From an uncultured Clostridia bacterium (GTDB lineage: Bacteria > Bacillota > Clostridia > Oscillospirales > Oscillospiraceae): 40,461 nucleotides of DNA. The first letter of the stretch is position 1; each line of letters starts with the position of its first letter. The translations under genes and the position numbers were made by a program. The notes under the pieces were generated by a model. The model saw only the letters and a program-made list of their open reading frames with translations. It had not been told where the DNA came from and did no database searches. Below, piece by piece: positions 20,953 to 34,892 of this stretch. The DNA is taken from NCBI GenBank assembly GCA_947365965.1, contig CANAZG010000020.1:1-40461 (forward strand), written 5' to 3'.

Positions 20953-21468
20953 TCACTCCCGCAGCAGCCTTCGCCGCTCCCGCCAGTCCGGCAGGACCTC
21001 CTCCACGCAGGCGTAGAAGGCGCGGCTGTGGTCCTTGTGGCAGATATGGGCCAGCTCGTGGACCACCACATAGTCAATGGCCGCCTCCGGATACTGCATC
21101 AGCCGCCAGGAAAAGCAGATCCGGTTTTTGCCGCTGCAGCTGCCAAAGCGGGTACGGGCCCCTGTGATGGTGATACCCGCAGGGGTCAGGCCCATGACAG
21201 CCCCGTAGCGGGCCACCCGGCCCGGCAGCTCCTCCCGGGCCCGGCGGATGTATTCGCTCCGCTCCTCCTCCGTGGGCTCGGGCCTCGCCGCCTGACGGCG
21301 GCGCTGGCGCTCCAGATGCTCCGCGATCCAAGCCCCGTGGTCCGCCACAAACTGGTCAATCCGCTTCTGGCTCAATCCCATGGGCGAGCGGACCACCACC
21401 TCCCCCTCCCTGGTGATCTCCAGGGCCAGGGTGCGGCGGCGGGAGCGGACAAGCCGGTAAGCGTCCAT
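20953..21468 (-). CDS. YgjP-type zinc metallopeptidase (DUF45)
   Basis: 171 aa. The C-terminal half carries VVHELAHICHKDHSRAFYACV, a HELxH zinc site with further His residues as in YgjP/DUF45 proteins, then LPDWRERRRLL. The centre has ARTRFGSCSGKNRICFSWRLM, typical of the family (RWGSC-like). No signal peptide; cytosolic. Its biological substrate is not known in general. The ATG (21468) overlaps the preceding alpha-glucosidase stop in TGATG, so the two are translationally coupled despite having no evident shared role. Confidence 0.92.
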   Translation of the reverse strand: MDAYRLVRSRRRTLALEITREGEVVVRSPMGLSQKRIDQFVADHGAWIAEHLERQRRRQAARPEPTEEERSEYIRRAREELPGRVARYGAVMGLTPAGITITGARTRFGSCSGKNRICFSWRLMQYPEAAIDYVVVHELAHICHKDHSRAFYACVEEVLPDWRERRRLLRE

Positions 21469-23069
21469 CACTCTAAAATCACAGCCTCCCAGGGCTGGAG
21501 CACGCCCTCGAACCGCGCCCGGGGGTAGTTGGAGCGCAGCAGGCTCCCCTGTACGCTCACCCGGGCGGGATCGTCGCTGAAGTTGAGCAGCACCGTCAGC
21601 TGCTCCTCCCCCAGGCGGCGGCGGTAGGCGAACAAAGGCGGCGCGGCCTCCATGGGCACGAACTCGCCCCGGCGCAGCACCTCCCGCTCCCGCCGCAGGG
21701 CCGCCAGATCCTTGTACCAGTTCCAGATGGAGGCTGGGTCCTCCTCCTGCTGGGCCAGATTGATGGAGGCGCAGTTGTGGTTCACCCCCAGCCAGGGGCG
21801 GCCCTGACTGAAGCCCGCCTGGGGCCCGTTGTCCCACTGGAAGGGGGTGCGGGCGTTGTCCCGGCTGGTGCGGGAGATGATCCTCCAGCGCAGCTTCTGG
21901 GGCACGTGGAACCGGCGCAGCAGCCTGTCCACATTCTTGCTCTCCACGTCGTTGAGCTGGCGGATGCGCTGGAAGTCAAAGTCCAGCATCCCGATCTCCT
22001 GGCCCTGGTAGAGGAAGGGGGTGCCCCGCAGGGTCAGCAGCAGGGTGGCCAGCAGCTTGCCGCTCTCCTTCCAGTACCGCACGCTGCCGAACCGGGGGAT
22101 GGACCGGGGCTGGTCGTGGTTCTCCAGATACAGGGCGTTCCAGTCCAGCTCCCTCTGCCACTGGGTCAGGCAGTCGAAGAACACCTTGGGCCGGAATTTC
22201 CGCTTCAGCCACTTCACATAGTACTGGTCGCACTCCATGTGCTGGAAGGAGAACACCATGTTCAGCTCCCGCCGCTCCGGCGCGCACAGGTCCCGGGCCT
22301 GCTGGGGCGTGACAAACACCGTCTCCCCCACGGTAAAGGCCTGGTACTCGTCCAGCACCTCCCGCAGCTGGCGGAGGATGCGGTGGTTCTCCTCCTGGGA
22401 GATGTAGCGCTCCTGGCCGGTGAGGGCCAGCCGCTTTTTGCCGCTGCCCAGGCTCTCCTTCCACAGCACGTTGATAACGTCGCACCGGAACCCGGCCACC
22501 CCCTTGTCCAGCCAGAAGCGGAGAATGTCCTTCACCTCCTCCAGCACCGCCGGGTTGTGGTAGTTCAGATCCGCCTGGGACTTGGCGAAAAGGTGGAGGT
22601 AGTACTCGCACCGCTGGGGGTCAAACTCCCAGCACTCCTCGCCGAAAAAGCCGGTCCAGTTGTTGGGCAGCGCCCCGTCGGGGCCGCCGTGGGACCAGTA
22701 GTAGTAGTCCGCGTAGGGGCTGGTCTTATCCCGGCTCTGCCGGAACCAGTAGTGGTCCGTGGAGGTGTGGTTGATGACCAGATCCATGAGGATCCGGATG
22801 CCCCGGCTCTTGGCCTGGGCGATGAGCTCCTCCATGTCCTCCATGGAGCCGTACTCCGGGTTGATCTCCCGATAGTCGCTGATGTCGTAGCCGTTGTCCG
22901 CGTTGGGGGACTTGTAGACCGGGCTGAGCCAGATGGCGTCCACCCCCAGCTCCTGGAGGTGGTCCAGCCGGCTGATGATGCCGGGGATGTCCCCGATGCC
23001 GTCGCCGTTGGAGTCCTGGAAGCTGCGGGGGTAGATCTGGTAGATGATCGCGTCCTTCCACCAGTCCAT
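21468..23069 (-). CDS. Alpha-glucosidase, GH13 (oligo-1,6-glucosidase type)
   Basis: 533 aa from the ATG at 23069 (GGAGG 9 nt upstream). It should hydrolyse short alpha-glucosides such as isomaltose, maltose or sucrose in the cytoplasm. The start DAIIYQIYPRSFQDSNGDG contains the Ca site of this subfamily; LMDLVINHTSTDHYWF is conserved region I; the nucleophile is Asp197 in GFRCDVINVL, the acid/base Glu249 in TVGETVF, and the third Asp is 319 in LENHDQPR, all present. Unlike its GH1-like neighbour it is therefore catalytically complete. It starts one base after that neighbour's stop. A trehalose-6-phosphate hydrolase or other member of the same subfamily cannot be excluded. Confidence 0.93.
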   Translation of the reverse strand: MDWWKDAIIYQIYPRSFQDSNGDGIGDIPGIISRLDHLQELGVDAIWLSPVYKSPNADNGYDISDYREINPEYGSMEDMEELIAQAKSRGIRILMDLVINHTSTDHYWFRQSRDKTSPYADYYYWSHGGPDGALPNNWTGFFGEECWEFDPQRCEYYLHLFAKSQADLNYHNPAVLEEVKDILRFWLDKGVAGFRCDVINVLWKESLGSGKKRLALTGQERYISQEENHRILRQLREVLDEYQAFTVGETVFVTPQQARDLCAPERRELNMVFSFQHMECDQYYVKWLKRKFRPKVFFDCLTQWQRELDWNALYLENHDQPRSIPRFGSVRYWKESGKLLATLLLTLRGTPFLYQGQEIGMLDFDFQRIRQLNDVESKNVDRLLRRFHVPQKLRWRIISRTSRDNARTPFQWDNGPQAGFSQGRPWLGVNHNCASINLAQQEEDPASIWNWYKDLAALRREREVLRRGEFVPMEAAPPLFAYRRRLGEEQLTVLLNFSDDPARVSVQGSLLRSNYPRARFEGVLQPWEAVILE

Positions 23070-23070
23070 G

Positions 23071-24366
23071 CTATCTCTCCTCCCGGGCCGCCGGGTAGGG
23101 GGCGGCACAGTACTCCCGGTACAGCTCCTCGCTGACCCCGCCCTGGGCGATGACCTGGCTGTAAAACCGGCCGCTCCACTTCACCCGCCGCTCCCGGTCG
23201 CTGCCCTCCAGGGCCACCAGACCGAACCGGGCGGAGAGGCCCTCCGTCCAGGTCCAGCCGTCGCAGAGGGTGTCGTGATAGTACCGCTCCACAGGCAGCT
23301 CGCTGCCGCACAGGGCCTCCAGGTGCTCGGCAATGTACCGGGCCCGGAAGTGCTCGCCGTTGTCGCAGGCGCCGTTGGCGGTGATATAGATGGGCCGGGG
23401 AACCAGCCTGTGGAGGCTCTCGCACACCTCCACAATGCCCGCCGGGCTGATCTCCCAGCCCAGATCGCTCACCGGGCGGCCCTTTGCCGCGCCGTCGGCG
23501 GGTCCGCTCACCGTGGAGCGGGCGTAGTAGTTGACCCCGTGGAAGTCGCAGTACCGGCCCGGGACGATAGCCGGGTGGCGGCCGATGGGAAAGCCGGTCC
23601 GGCCGGTGCACATGGCCCGGGCCAGACTGCCCTGGAACAGTTGCTCCGCCCGGGAGGCCCAGAAGCGGTGGACTGGGTCGGCGCTGTCCTCGGGCCCGAA
23701 GGCGCGCAGATGGAGGGCCACGCCCACCCGGGTGTCCTGGAAGCCCATTTGCAGCCGGGTCTTGCGGATGAGGCCGTAGGCCTCGATGTGGGCGGCGGCC
23801 AGATTGGTCATGACGCGGGCCATGTCCAGAAGGTTCCTTTTGCCCGGTGGCCACGCGCCGGTGAGCCAGCCGTTGTAGGCGTAGAGATTGGGGGCGTTGA
23901 AGGTGACGTACTCGCTGACCAGATCCCCGAAGCTCTCCACCATCCTGCGCACGTAGCGCAGAAAGCAGGTGATGTTGTCGCTGCTGGCAAAGGCCCCCCG
24001 GTCCTCCAGCCACAGGGGGTTGGAGAAGTGGTGGAGGGTGAGCAGGGGCCGGATGCCCCGGTCCGTCAGGTCCTGGAGCTCCCGGCGGTAGCGGTCAATG
24101 GCCTGCTGGTCAAAAACGCCGTCCTCCGGCTCCACCCGGCTCCACTCCACGCTCATCCGGCAGCACTGGACGCCCAGCTCCTCCATCAGCGCCCCGTCCT
24201 CCTGCCAGCGGGCAAAGTGGTCCACGCAGGCGGCCGGGTCGGCGCTGTCCTTGATGTGCCCCTGGGCGTACCAGCGGCGCCAGCTGCTGTCCAGCGGCCC
24301 CCCCTCGATCTGCGGGGCCGCCGTGGTCACGCCCAGCAGCATGCCGGGCTTTAGCTGAAAATTCAT
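23071..24366 (-). CDS. GH1-like protein lacking both catalytic glutamates (probable pseudoenzyme)
   Basis: 431 aa; the fold is clearly glycoside hydrolase family 1 (LLGVTTAAPQIEGG, MSVEWSRVEPEDGVFD, LLTLHHFSNPLWLED, FHGVNYYARS, ARFGLVALE). In active GH1 enzymes the acid/base Glu is in TFNEP and the nucleophile in TENG. Here they read TFNAP (Ala158, codon GCC) and ITANG (Ala330, codon GCC). The glucose-binding DNFEW region is also changed, to DGWTWTEG. The frame is otherwise intact and full-length. It should not hydrolyse glycosides by the normal route; binding, sensing or regulation of the coupled GH13 enzyme is possible. AAAGGAGG lies 4 nt before the ATG. It follows yhaM by 47 bp and may share its transcript. 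Confidence 0.92.
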   Translation of the reverse strand: MNFQLKPGMLLGVTTAAPQIEGGPLDSSWRRWYAQGHIKDSADPAACVDHFARWQEDGALMEELGVQCCRMSVEWSRVEPEDGVFDQQAIDRYRRELQDLTDRGIRPLLTLHHFSNPLWLEDRGAFASSDNITCFLRYVRRMVESFGDLVSEYVTFNAPNLYAYNGWLTGAWPPGKRNLLDMARVMTNLAAAHIEAYGLIRKTRLQMGFQDTRVGVALHLRAFGPEDSADPVHRFWASRAEQLFQGSLARAMCTGRTGFPIGRHPAIVPGRYCDFHGVNYYARSTVSGPADGAAKGRPVSDLGWEISPAGIVEVCESLHRLVPRPIYITANGACDNGEHFRARYIAEHLEALCGSELPVERYYHDTLCDGWTWTEGLSARFGLVALEGSDRERRVKWSGRFYSQVIAQGGVSEELYREYCAAPYPAAREER

Positions 24367-28163: not shown

Positions 28164-29474
28164 ATGTGGTTTGACGAATCGGTCATCTATCAGATCTATC
28201 CCCTGGGCCTGTGCGGCGCCCCCCGGGAGAACGACGGCATCCAGGCCCACCGCATCCTGCGGGTTCAGGAGTGGGCGGAGCATATTAAGGCCCTGGGGGC
28301 GGACACGGTCCTCTTCAACCCCCTCTTCGACAGCGACCGCCACGGCTACGACACCCGGGACTACCGCACCGTGGACTGCCGCCTGGGGACCAATCAGGAC
28401 TTCCGCCAGGTCTGCGACGCACTCCACGCCGCCGGACTGCGGGTCATGCTGGACGGCGTGTTCAACCATGTGGGCCGGGGCTTCTGGGCTTTCCGGGACG
28501 TGCAGGAGAAGAAGTGGGACAGCCCCTACAAGGACTGGTTCCACATCAGCTTTGACGGCAACACCGGCTACAACGACGGCTTCTGGTACGAGGCCTGGGA
28601 GGGCCACTACGAGCTGGTGAAGCTGAACCTCCAGAATCCGGCGGTGGTGCAGCACCAGTTTGACGTCATCCGGAGCTGGGTGGAGCAGTTCGGCATCGAC
28701 GGGCTGCGCCTGGACGTGGCCTACTGCCTGAGCCCGGACTACCTGCGGCAGCTGCGGGCCTTCACCGACGGCCTCAAGCCGGACTTCGTGCTCATGGGGG
28801 AGACCCTCCACGGGGACTACAACCGATGGATGAACGACAGCGCCTGCCACTCGGTGACCAACTACGAGTGCTACAAGGGCCTCTGGTCCAGCTTCAACTC
28901 CATGAACCTCTTCGAGATCGGCCACAGTCTGGCCCGCCAGTTCGGCCCTGAGCAGTGGACCCTCTACAAGGGCCGGCATCTGCTCAGCTTCCTGGACAAC
29001 CACGACGTGGAGCGCATTGCCAGCATCCTGACCAACCAGGAGCACCTGCGTCCGGCCTACGGCATCCTCTTCGGTATGCCCGGCGTGCCGTCGGTGTACT
29101 ACGGCAGCGAGTGGGGCCTGGAGGGCCGGAAGAGCCAGGGGGACGACGCCCTGCGCCCGGCGCTGGAGAGGCCGGAGAGCAATGAGCTGACCGGGTTCAT
29201 CGCCCGTCTGTCCCAGGCCCGCCGGAGCAGCCGGGCCCTGTGCTACGGCGGCTACCGGAACGTGGTGCTTACCAACCGGCAGATCATCTTTGAGCGGGCC
29301 GTGGAGGGGGAGCGGGTGCTGGTGGCGGTCAACGCCGACGGCGCGCCCTACACCGCCCACTTTGACGCCGGGTGCGGCATGGCGGTGGATCTGATTACTG
29401 GGGAGAACCACGACTTCGGCGGCGGCAGCCAGCTGGCCCCCTACAGCGTGGCCTTCTGGAAGATGGAGCGGTAG
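28164..29474 (+). CDS. GH13 alpha-amylase family enzyme (short maltodextrin-hydrolase type)
   Basis: 436 aa, short for GH13 and with no signal peptide, so it is cytosolic. It should act on alpha-glucans or maltodextrins. The start is SVIYQIYPLGLCGAP, as in small cyclomaltodextrinase-like enzymes. Region I is VMLDGVFNHVG; the nucleophile is Asp184 in DGLRLDVAYC, the acid/base Glu213 in LMGETLHG, and the third Asp is 281 in LDNHDVER, all present. There is no N-terminal carbohydrate-binding domain of the neopullulanase kind. AAGGAG precedes the ATG. It has its own promoter and terminator, so it is a single-gene unit. Confidence 0.93.
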   Translation: MWFDESVIYQIYPLGLCGAPRENDGIQAHRILRVQEWAEHIKALGADTVLFNPLFDSDRHGYDTRDYRTVDCRLGTNQDFRQVCDALHAAGLRVMLDGVFNHVGRGFWAFRDVQEKKWDSPYKDWFHISFDGNTGYNDGFWYEAWEGHYELVKLNLQNPAVVQHQFDVIRSWVEQFGIDGLRLDVAYCLSPDYLRQLRAFTDGLKPDFVLMGETLHGDYNRWMNDSACHSVTNYECYKGLWSSFNSMNLFEIGHSLARQFGPEQWTLYKGRHLLSFLDNHDVERIASILTNQEHLRPAYGILFGMPGVPSVYYGSEWGLEGRKSQGDDALRPALERPESNELTGFIARLSQARRSSRALCYGGYRNVVLTNRQIIFERAVEGERVLVAVNADGAPYTAHFDAGCGMAVDLITGENHDFGGGSQLAPYSVAFWKMER

Positions 29475-31658: not shown

Positions 31659-34600
31659 TTACCCCTCCGCGAACCGCATGACGATCTGGGCCAGTTCCGC
31701 CCGGGTGGTGAGGCCCTGGGGATCCAGGACGCCGCTGGACCGGCCGGCGATCAGGCCCTCTCCCACGGCCCAGGAGAGACCGTCCCGGGCCCAGTCCGCC
31801 ACACTGGAGCGGTCCGCAAAGCCGGAGAGATCCCCCGCCGGGTCCACGGGGCCGTAGAGCTGGGCGCACCGGCGGAGCATGACCGCCAGCTGCTGCCGGG
31901 TGACGCTGGCCATGCCGCCGAAGGTGTTCTCATTGTACCCGTCCACGATGCCCTGGCCGTAGGCCCAGGTGAGGGCGGGCAGGTAGGGGGTTTCGGCGCT
32001 GATGTCGGTAAAGGGCAGATCCCCGGCGCTGAAGGCGGTGGAGGGGCTGCCGGCGGCGGCGTACAGGGCCGAGACCACCTGGGCCCGGGTGGCGCTGTCC
32101 TGGGGCTGGAAGGTGAGGGCCGTCTCCCCCTCCATCAGGTCCTTGGCGCGGACGTAGTCCACCGCCTCGTGGTACCACGCGCCCTTGTTTACATCCGTTA
32201 GAATGGCCGCCGGGCACTCCGCAGCTGAGAGGGTCTCCAGATCATATACATACCCCACCGCGTTGGAGGCGTAGTCCTCCGCCGCCACGTAGATCTCCTC
32301 CGCGCCGGAGGCGTCCACGGTCACGCTGACGCTCTCCCCGGCGATCTGGGGGGTCAGCCGCTTCTCCGAGAGCAGGCGGCCGCCGCTGTCCCACACCGCG
32401 GCATAGGCCAGATGCAGATCGTCCTGGAAGGTCACGGTGAGATTTCCCGCATCCCCGGACACGTTCACCGTGGGGGCCGCCCCGTCGATGGTCACAGGGA
32501 AGCTCCACTCCCGGTAGGGCGCGTACTCCTCCGAGAGGAGCCAGCGGTAGGTCTCCGGCGCGCCGTAGTCGCTGCCGCTCTGGCCGTAGACGGCCTCCAT
32601 CTCCTTGTCGTAGTCCAGCCAGGCGTAGAAGTCCACCCGCACCCGCGTGCCGGCGGGCAGGGGATTGCCGCCGCTGTCCGTGCCGTCCCACTGGTAGTTG
32701 GAGCTGCCGCCCATCCGCTGCTCGTAGCCGTTGTACTGGGACTTCACCAGCCAGGGGCTGTCCTGCACCGCGTAGACGGCCCCCGTGTCCTGATCGGACA
32801 CCAGCATCACCGCCCGGGCGGCGTTGCGCAGGGTGAAGAGCTCTATGTTCAGCAGATGTCCGGCGCTGTACATGGCCTGCACGTCCTTCCGGGACAGGCT
32901 GTTATACAGGTCGCTGTGGCGGCCCGGGTTCAGGCCGCTCTCACCCAGGAGGCGATCTGTGGTCTCGCCGGACCGGCCCAGGCGGGGCAGGTTGGCCCCC
33001 ATGTTCACCGCCAGCAGGTCCCAGTAGTCGTCCTTCCCGCCGGAGGGGAGCAGCGCGTCCTGCACGTCCCGGAAGTCCACCGGCTCCAGGAGGGGGGCGG
33101 CGCTCCAGTCGCCGCAGTAGCCCAGGAAGGTGGCGTGGACCGCCTGACCCTCCCCGGCGTCGGCGGTGATGTAGCCCTCCACGAAATAGCCGTTGGAGAA
33201 CACCGAACGGAGGCGGGGCAGATCAGCGGAGATTGCCACGGTCACGGTCTTCTCCCCTCTGGCGGGCACGGTCACCGGCTCCAGGCCGGAGACGGTGACC
33301 TCGCCAGTGATGTCCATGGGGGTCATGCGGCTGTAGTAGGTATCCCCCTGCTTCTCATAGGCGTCGGTGACCACCTCCGCCGCCAGCTGGACGGTCAGCT
33401 CCCGGTCCGAGAGGTTGCGCAGGGTGAAGGAGGCGGTAAAGCTGCCCGTCTCGCTGTCCCCCAGCTCCAGCAGGGGGTCCAGAATGGTGAGATCGCTGGC
33501 CGCAGCCGCCGCCGGGTCCACCAGCCCCGCCCCCTGCTTCCGGGGGGAGAAAGGAACGCCGCTGTTGTCCCGAAGGATCTGCGCCGCGCTCTCCATCAGG
33601 CTCTGGGCCAGATTGGCGGCCTCCTGCCGGTTGGTGACGCCCCGCTCCCGCAGCGATTGCAGCAGCACCGCGAAGGCGCCCGCCGCGCTGCCGGAGGCCA
33701 TGGAGGTGCCGCTCTCCTGGTAGAAATAGCTGTCGTCCCGGCTGCCGGCGGACAGGGTCATGCCGCCGAAGGCGGTCAGCTCCGGCTTCAGGCGCAGGTC
33801 GGAGGTGGTGCCCCAGTTGGAGTACCCGGCTGTCACCGGATTGCTGCCCACGCCGGCGCTCCACTCCGCCGCGCCCACGCCCAGGGCGCCGATGTAGGAG
33901 GCCGGGGAGCAGAGGGTGCCGTAGTCGGTGTAGCTGGCGGTGGGCAGGGAGGAGCCCTCCATCTTCATATCCAGGGCACCGCCGATGTTGCCGGCGGCGC
34001 AGCAGATGATGACCCCCGCCCGGCGCATCTGGGCAAAGGCCTGACAGTACAGGCCGTCCAGCACGTCGTCCTGGGCGTAGCCGTTGGGCGTGCCCAGGGA
34101 GAGGTTGACCACGTCCGCCCCCAGATTCCACGCGTCCTCCAGAGCCCGCAGGATCACCGCGTCGTCCGCGCCGCCCACGGTGCCGTCAGGGAACACCTTC
34201 ATGCTGAGGATCTGCGCCGCCGGGGCCGCGCCCCGGAAGGCCCCCTGCGCCTCGGGGACGTACCCCGCCGCCAGGGCGGCCACGTGGCTGCCGTGGTCGT
34301 CTATGGTGGACACGTCCGTGTCCCGGCCGAAGTAGTCGTAGGCAAAGGGAATGCGGGCGGAGAGGTAGGCCCCCTTGGTGCCGCCCTTGCGGGCAAAGGC
34401 CTCCACGTCCGCCCGGCTCAGGGCCGGGGACTGGGCCAGACCGTAGTCGGCAAAGGCGTCGTGGGTGACCCGCATACCGCTGTCCAGCACGGCGATGACC
34501 ATGCCGCCGCCGTCATAGCCCTGGTCCCACATCTCCTCCAGGCCCATCATAGCCAGGCCGCCGTCCTCTCCGGCGGCGCCGCCGCGCTGGGGCAGGGCGT

Positions 34601-34892
34601 AGGTGCGGGCAAGGCCCACCCCCTCCACGCCCTCTAGGGACTCCGCCGATGCGAGACCCGCCGGGTCCGCCTCAATGGCGGCGCCGGAGAAGAGGCTGTC
34701 GTAGGTCCACAGGACCTCCACGCCCTCCAGGGACGCCAGCGCTGCGGTCAGCGCCTCCGGATCGGCCTGCCGGTCAAAGCGGACCACCGCCCGCTCCGGC
34801 GCGCCGCCGGCGGCCAGGGCGGCCCCGGAGAGAGCCGCCCCGGCCAGCAGGGCCATGAGGACGGTCAGCAGATGATATGTCTTTTTTCTCAT
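31659..34892 (-). CDS. Secreted subtilisin-like S8 serine protease with SLH anchor
   Basis: 1077 aa. Signal peptide to about residue 28 (ALAAGG). A propeptide follows ([20 protein letters not shown]). The catalytic triad is Asp137 (VIAVLDSGM), His200 ([10 protein letters not shown]) and Ser397 ([12 protein letters not shown]). Between His and Ser lies a PA-like or insert region; after the protease come Fn3-like beta domains (about 470-870) as in lactocepin or C5a peptidase. The C-terminus has three SLH repeats ([48 protein letters not shown]), anchoring it to the wall. It should degrade extracellular proteins at the cell surface. GGGGG precedes the ATG, and a promoter lies just upstream. Confidence 0.94.

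Follow-up and report, generated by a model that had tools for sequence, protein, structure and literature searches.

A bacterial GH1-fold protein without its two catalytic glutamates: a candidate pseudo-glycosidase from a clade with repeated losses at the catalytic site

Plant myrosinase is a GH1 enzyme that lacks the acid/base glutamate and keeps the nucleophile; in engineered glycosynthases, which are man-made and need fluoride donors, the nucleophile is replaced and the acid/base residue is kept. Proteins without conserved catalytic motifs are termed pseudoenzymes (PMC10211241), and the closest precedent for the protein described here is animal klotho, a GH1 pseudoglycosidase in whose domains catalytic glutamates are replaced, a source naming N239 and S872 in human and N241 and A874 in mouse (PMC8302672). 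Klotho is described as acting as a lectin rather than a glycosidase (PMC10628560), and to bind sugar-mimicking motifs of FGFs (PMC7828330). The same paper, which defines a lectin-like pseudoglycosidase by its binding of glycans without cleaving them, names further pseudoglycosidases that bind without cutting, human YKL-39 (GH18) and a GH33-like protozoan protein (PMC7828330). A literature search of partial coverage, by which absence is unproven, brought up no paper on bacterial GH1 proteins dead by nature that we could identify as such.

The stretch of DNA analysed here (40,461 nt, hereafter the window) carries on its minus strand (23071..24366) a gene for a GH1-fold protein of 431 aa in which both catalytic glutamates are missing, as assigned from Pfam PF00232 and a predicted model. 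The Pfam profile (Glyco_hydro_1) matches over its full length (residues 5-408) with 203 bits against a cut-off of 22.6, and solved GH1 beta-glucosidases align in sequence with almost the entire chain (best 199 bits); the NCBIfam equivalog TIGR03356 scores 220 bits, under its cut-off of 478.5. At codon 158 (23893..23895, minus strand), the acid/base position, GCC (Ala) turns TFNEP into TFNAP, and at codon 330 (23377..23379, minus strand), the nucleophile position, GCC (Ala) turns TENG into TANG (ITANG). The 14 other genus orthologues have GAG or GAA at both codons, so each change from Glu to Ala amounts to two base substitutions. The sugar-binding region is altered as well, reading CDGWTW where a CDNxEW (DNFEW-like) motif is expected. 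There, codon 372 (23251..23253, minus strand) encodes Thr where the DNxEW motif has its glycone-binding Glu, a residue near-invariant in 34 orthologues with both catalytic glutamates (Glu/Glu members), and codon 365 (23272..23274, minus strand) encodes Asp where the Trp of the -1 subsite would stand (motif alignment, YYHDTLCDGWTW versus YYHWCFCDNWEW), a position aligned with Arg in the Glu/Glu members G184, G411 and G054. In GH1 enzymes the Glu equivalent to position 372 holds the 4- and 6-hydroxyls of the sugar; of the ten -1 subsite residues, a set taken from Thermotoga BglA, six are retained (Gln19, His113, Asn157, Asn279, Tyr281 and Trp373).

Neither the acid/base nor the nucleophile Glu by which a retaining glycosidase is recognised is present, and the absence of both places the protein among pseudoenzymes as these are defined by sequence; judged from its residues, it is very likely dead as a retaining glycosidase. 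A preliminary description of this DNA had reported the two Ala residues with their GCC codons, the altered DNFEW region and an intact, full-length frame, and all of these were confirmed, with an in-frame stop closing the 431-codon frame (24366..23071, minus strand). The open frame proves little here, although it is intact: the gene has a GC3 of 0.92, like its neighbours, and an antisense open frame of 436 aa (window 23044-24354, plus strand), a by-product of that GC3, spans nearly the whole gene, so that intactness is weak evidence of selection.

The retention of the rest of the fold, likewise claimed earlier, is borne out by prediction. An AlphaFold2 model of the window protein (alignment of 38 proteins) reached a pLDDT of 93.6 and a pTM of 0.93, and its best solved matches in Foldseek were the Thermotoga and Pyrococcus GH1 beta-glucosidases (TM 0.85-0.88); the model of G323, a protein from genus g80 that has also lost a catalytic Glu, reached a pLDDT of 93.0 with 1vff as best solved match. 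Both are predicted with confidence to be GH1 (beta/alpha)8 barrels, from alignments that include intact GH1 members.

Genus-level comparison places the change on a single lineage. In a search of 25 genomes, 14 besides the window's own carry a GH1 orthologue (63-70% identity), and all 14 have Glu at both catalytic sites; the Ala/Ala state is therefore private to the window lineage among the genomes examined. It is known from one genome only, 76.6% complete, and a search of this genome with the window GH1 as query (E 0.001) revealed no second GH1 in the part assembled. The mean identity of the window GH1 to the genus was 66.7% versus 74.6% among other pairs, and the corresponding values for the adjacent GH13 were 78.9% versus 80.4%, the other-pair means omitting pairs inside one tight group of four.

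This GH13 gene (21468..23069, minus strand) starts with an ATG at 23069, one base past the GH1 stop, as had been stated before. Its product is of the alpha-glucosidase type (Pfam Alpha-amylase, 467 bits; nearest solved structures of the oligo-1,6-glucosidase type, PDB 9u7v at 496 bits and 1uok at 482 bits), with the catalytic motifs GFRCD, GETVF and NHD intact. Beyond it lies a YgjP-like metallopeptidase (20953..21498, minus strand, with a provisional start), the C-terminal part of an ORF at 20953..21837; it shows 68.9% mean identity to nine genus orthologues, and its family was assigned through the G234 orthologue. The order GH1-GH13 is that of the genus, followed at several loci by an MFS_2-family sugar transporter and the YgjP-like peptidase. 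The transporter is absent between GH13 and YgjP in the window and was not found elsewhere in its genome at E 1e-60. It is likewise lacking in G368, G411, G406 and G184, which keep both glutamates, so transporter loss was set aside as an insufficient cause of the Glu loss. In other parts of the clade, the gene after GH1 can encode a GH36 alpha-galactosidase instead of GH13. Two further genes of the window may be mentioned: a second GH13 (28164-29474, plus strand), nearest to cyclomaltodextrinase and maltodextrin glucosidase models but under their cut-offs, and a 1077-aa product (31659-34892, minus strand) whose translation, on visual inspection, resembles a secreted protease of the subtilisin type carrying surface-layer repeats at its C-terminus.

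The wider clade comprises GH1 orthologues of one bacterial family together with four intact members elsewhere in the order. It was drawn from 400 genomes of the family, 394 genomes of the order (source of the four intact members beyond the family), named genomes that were scanned (one member, SUG1290) and a search of genus g80 (four more complete members); other genus searches added none. Both glutamates are present in 34 of the 50 complete members collected and at least one is missing in 16, in a sample that is not random, g80 having been searched because it is dead and the window's genus having been searched whole. The even family-level draw gives a similar picture, with 11 of 32 complete members lacking at least one catalytic Glu (33 members with the partial G149, which was left unscored). 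Members without at least one catalytic Glu are called dead here; the class includes those that lost a single Glu and is thus one predicted from sequence. The truncated hits L036 (G149), L048 and L060 were dropped from the alignment, the partial hit G418 (L111) lies outside the 50, G231 and G270 are not clade members, and loci L001, L002, L003, L004 and L006, taken to be the same as G029, G403, G368, G184 and G185, were counted once. Frequent Glu loss looks like a trait of this clade, since 13 GH1 proteins that lie outside it but are encoded in genomes of the window's genus keep Glu wherever it can be read (nucleophile 13/13; acid/base 12/12 readable, one X).

The residues now found at the two sites differ between lineages. 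Written as acid/base and nucleophile, the window protein has A/A, G040 E/A, G067 E/G, the seven g80 species E/L, G129 R/gap, G190 R/A, G015 G/E, G034 S/E, and G088 and G159 Q/E in an altered motif, the nucleophile region of G129, G190 and G088/G159 being gapped or altered in the alignment and its exact state there unsure. G040, g80 and G067 (L061, L066-L068 and L071) thus keep the acid/base Glu and have lost the nucleophile; G015, G034, G159 and G088 (L062, L063, L069 and L070) have lost the acid/base Glu and seemingly keep the nucleophile, with further pocket residues gone. Conservation of the Ala/Ala pair among homologues, a check suggested by the preliminary description, was not seen: the pair was found in no relative, each lineage having lost the site differently.

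The maximum-likelihood tree (LG+C20) needs four changes, all of them forced by well-supported branches, and a tree built without the motif columns forces the same four. Because members within two of the forced groups lost different glutamates, the count rises to about six to eight losses if Glu was never regained, depending on weakly supported forks. Eighty-two positions are near-invariant in the 34 Glu/Glu members, and the window protein keeps 76 of them; the six changed are E158A, V161L, Y307S, E330A, D338E and E372T, three of which are active-site glutamates. Across eight dead lineages, nine -1 subsite positions changed 42 times compared with 18.9 expected when the changes of each lineage were dealt randomly over the 82 positions (p < 0.0001; 0 of 20,000 shuffles as high as 42). 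With the two catalytic sites removed, 32 changes were observed versus 14.1 expected, and only this comparison is free of selection bias because the lineages had been picked for catalytic Glu loss. Taken singly, the pocket excess was significant in five lineages (G000, p = 0.016; G040; G129/G190; G015; G034) and not significant in G067, G088/G159 and g80. As a control, one of six active members with many near-invariant changes has a pocket change (G054, N279S). Furthermore, 7 of the 20 near-invariant positions changed in g80 show the same new residue across all seven species.

Selection was measured with a codon model of our own writing (one omega per branch class, F3x4 frequencies). Three dead groups represented by several genomes are under purifying selection: omega was 0.172 within G088/G159, 0.087 within G129/G190 and 0.127 within the seven species of g80, and omega = 1 was rejected in each (2dlnL 86, 148 and 860, respectively). 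These values stand for the three multi-genome groups, G040, G015, G034 and G067 being single-genome lineages. Synonymous sites were near saturation in most comparisons, least so in the G088/G159 pair, which is the most telling. In the active groups tested, omega was 0.011-0.093, with saturated pairs giving the lowest values. Constraint thus tends to be weaker in dead proteins than in active ones, yet the dead ones are far from neutral.

For the branch leading to the window GH1, the dN/dS check proposed earlier gave a two-sided answer. Its omega of 0.151 was raised relative to 0.079 elsewhere in the genus (2dlnL 9.86, with synonymous lengths near saturation), yet omega = 1 was rejected (2dlnL 66), a result that stems from one genome and holds for the branch as a whole, before and after the Glu loss taken together. 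When each of the 15 GH1 sequences was made the foreground in turn, only that of the window stood out. The GH13 of the same genome is raised likewise (0.129 versus 0.056; 2dlnL 13.9), perhaps through codon bias, and the omega value was for this reason rejected as proof of relaxation specific to GH1. Amino-acid branch lengths were judged the better test, using trees of 13 of the 15 genus members for GH1 and GH13 and of 10 for YgjP. The window branch was the longest of 13 for GH1 (0.407, 1.7 times the next at 0.237), the second of 13 for GH13 (0.175; longest 0.179) and the fifth of 10 for YgjP (0.265), and the GC content at first and second codon positions of the window GH1 was the highest among the 15 genus orthologues. 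Branch length and identity that depart in GH1 only, together with this composition, suggest that GH1, unlike its neighbours, has been partly relaxed or has changed its role.

Taken together, we lean towards reading the window GH1 as a pseudo-glycosidase in which catalysis was lost on this species' branch and which was kept for a non-catalytic role. Such a kept role is, on balance, the likelier outcome for the window lineage because of the history of its sister lineages and the sparing of near-invariant residues outside the pocket. The preliminary description had proposed selection for a non-hydrolytic job, which is plausible because the glutamates were lost with the predicted fold intact and three sister groups are under purifying selection, yet the Ala/Ala pair itself was found in no relative. 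On our preferred reading, catalysis would have been dropped on the branch to the window species and the barrel retained; the protein would bind a sugar or glycoside without cleaving it, a role proposed because six of the ten -1 subsite residues remain and one that these residues make possible, and it would act in the sugar operon as a partner of binding or regulatory kind, expressed together with GH13. In lineages that have also lost the sugar-binding residues, any surviving function would rest on the barrel surface. A broader and more doubtful proposal is that the GH1 of this clade already served a second, non-catalytic function when the first loss occurred, so that catalysis could be dropped at least four (probably six to eight) times with the barrel remaining under selection. 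Were that so, the window gene would represent a young, clean case (double Ala, pocket half kept) and g80 an old one, with its seven shared new residues at near-invariant positions.

The main rival is early decay, according to which this lineage ceased to need the enzyme, for instance once the transporter was lost, and the gene has just begun to erode, its frame still open for shortness of time. We consider it less probable than a kept role but serious, because the state rests on one genome. An acceleration specific to GH1 among the genes compared, the drift in base composition at the first two codon positions and the sugar transporter not found in the genome all fit it, and by arithmetic from the codon-model result the observed omega would arise if the gene had spent about 8% of the time neutral and 92% under constraint. 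At the neutral distance implied by that mixture a frame would stay free of stops with a probability of 0.06 to 0.43, a range that depends on the mutation model, and the open frame was accordingly rejected as proof of selection. Against decay stands the pattern of change, since random decay would not target the three active-site glutamates found among only six altered near-invariant positions (hypergeometric chance about 0.0002 for this trio, chosen post hoc, and 0.016 for the nine pocket positions); moreover, the four other genus members without the transporter keep both glutamates, and dead groups elsewhere are conserved. The picture of a decaying gene among intact homologues, against which the preliminary description had set its claim, is therefore half borne out: close homologues are intact and the GH1 branch is the longest, but neutrality over the whole branch is rejected.

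An unlikely alternative holds that the frame is kept solely for ribosome-coupled translation of GH13, the GH1 protein itself being idle. The spacing suits it, as the GH1 and GH13 frames overlap or lie at most four bases apart in all 13 other genus loci showing both (with starts called mechanically) and one base apart in the window. Coupling of this kind would explain an open frame but neither the 76 of 82 near-invariant residues kept nor the confident predicted fold, and it does not extend to the remaining dead members, whose flanks yielded no such GH13. The latter result comes from a tblastn search with the window GH13 (E 1e-5) of the sequence flanking these 15 members, 11 of the stretches being 4.6-19.5 kb long (the G190 contig ending just past the gene) and those of G415, G416, G423 and G424 3.4-4.2 kb; the search covered the flanks alone, which are short in five of the 15, and was positive in five of seven stretches of active members. 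A partnership with GH13, suggested earlier for the window protein, thus fails as a general reason for dead GH1 proteins, and closely spaced GH1-GH13 pairs also occur in the genus with GH1 intact. A shared neighbour gene pointing to one function was looked for in the flanks of the dead lineages and none was found: these vary, the longer stretches placing GH1 between a transketolase or M24 peptidase and a TetR or sodium symporter gene, or near SSB-like and housekeeping genes. Migration of catalysis to a new pocket carboxylate with different chemistry is highly improbable, for although Trp365 to Asp gives the -1 subsite an acid, and D338E sits eight residues past the old nucleophile, Asp365 is not seen in intact genus orthologues and the sugar-holding Glu372 is lost too.

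The repeated loss in this clade bears on how such proteins are counted. Glycoside hydrolases are often enumerated by family profile alone, yet in about one third of this clade a catalytic Glu is missing, and the Pfam GH1 cut-off is still exceeded by the window protein and by all ten other dead members scanned (57-193 bits for the latter). Because relatives have repeatedly lost portions of the cutting site and kept the remainder of the protein, the barrel shape probably serves a second purpose other than cutting. Provided that the dead members are functional, they make up a natural gradation from the intact enzyme to single and then double loss with altered pockets, which could reveal the non-cutting role of the GH1 barrel and whether a second job drove the loss of catalysis.

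Compared with known systems, the window protein shares its fold, length and a near-full-chain sequence match with the beta-glucosidases of Pyrococcus horikoshii (1vff) and Thermotoga maritima (BglA, 1od0), but lacks both catalytic glutamates and the glycone-binding Glu. The residue pattern of myrosinase recurs in G015, G034 and G088/G159, which lack only the acid/base Glu in the alignment, and that of glycosynthases in G040, G067 and g80, whereas the window protein is without either Glu. YKL-39 and the GH33-like protein differ from it in belonging to other GH families and to eukaryotic hosts. Klotho shares the GH1 fold and the replacement of catalytic glutamates, but is a two-domain animal co-receptor for which one replaced Glu per domain is named (PMC8302672). 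The co-receptor architecture of klotho, two GH1-like domains with a membrane anchor, is not that of the window protein, which consists of one GH1 domain beginning at residue 5 of 431 aa; it is a single bacterial domain in which both glutamates are replaced, and represents one of several separate losses in its clade.
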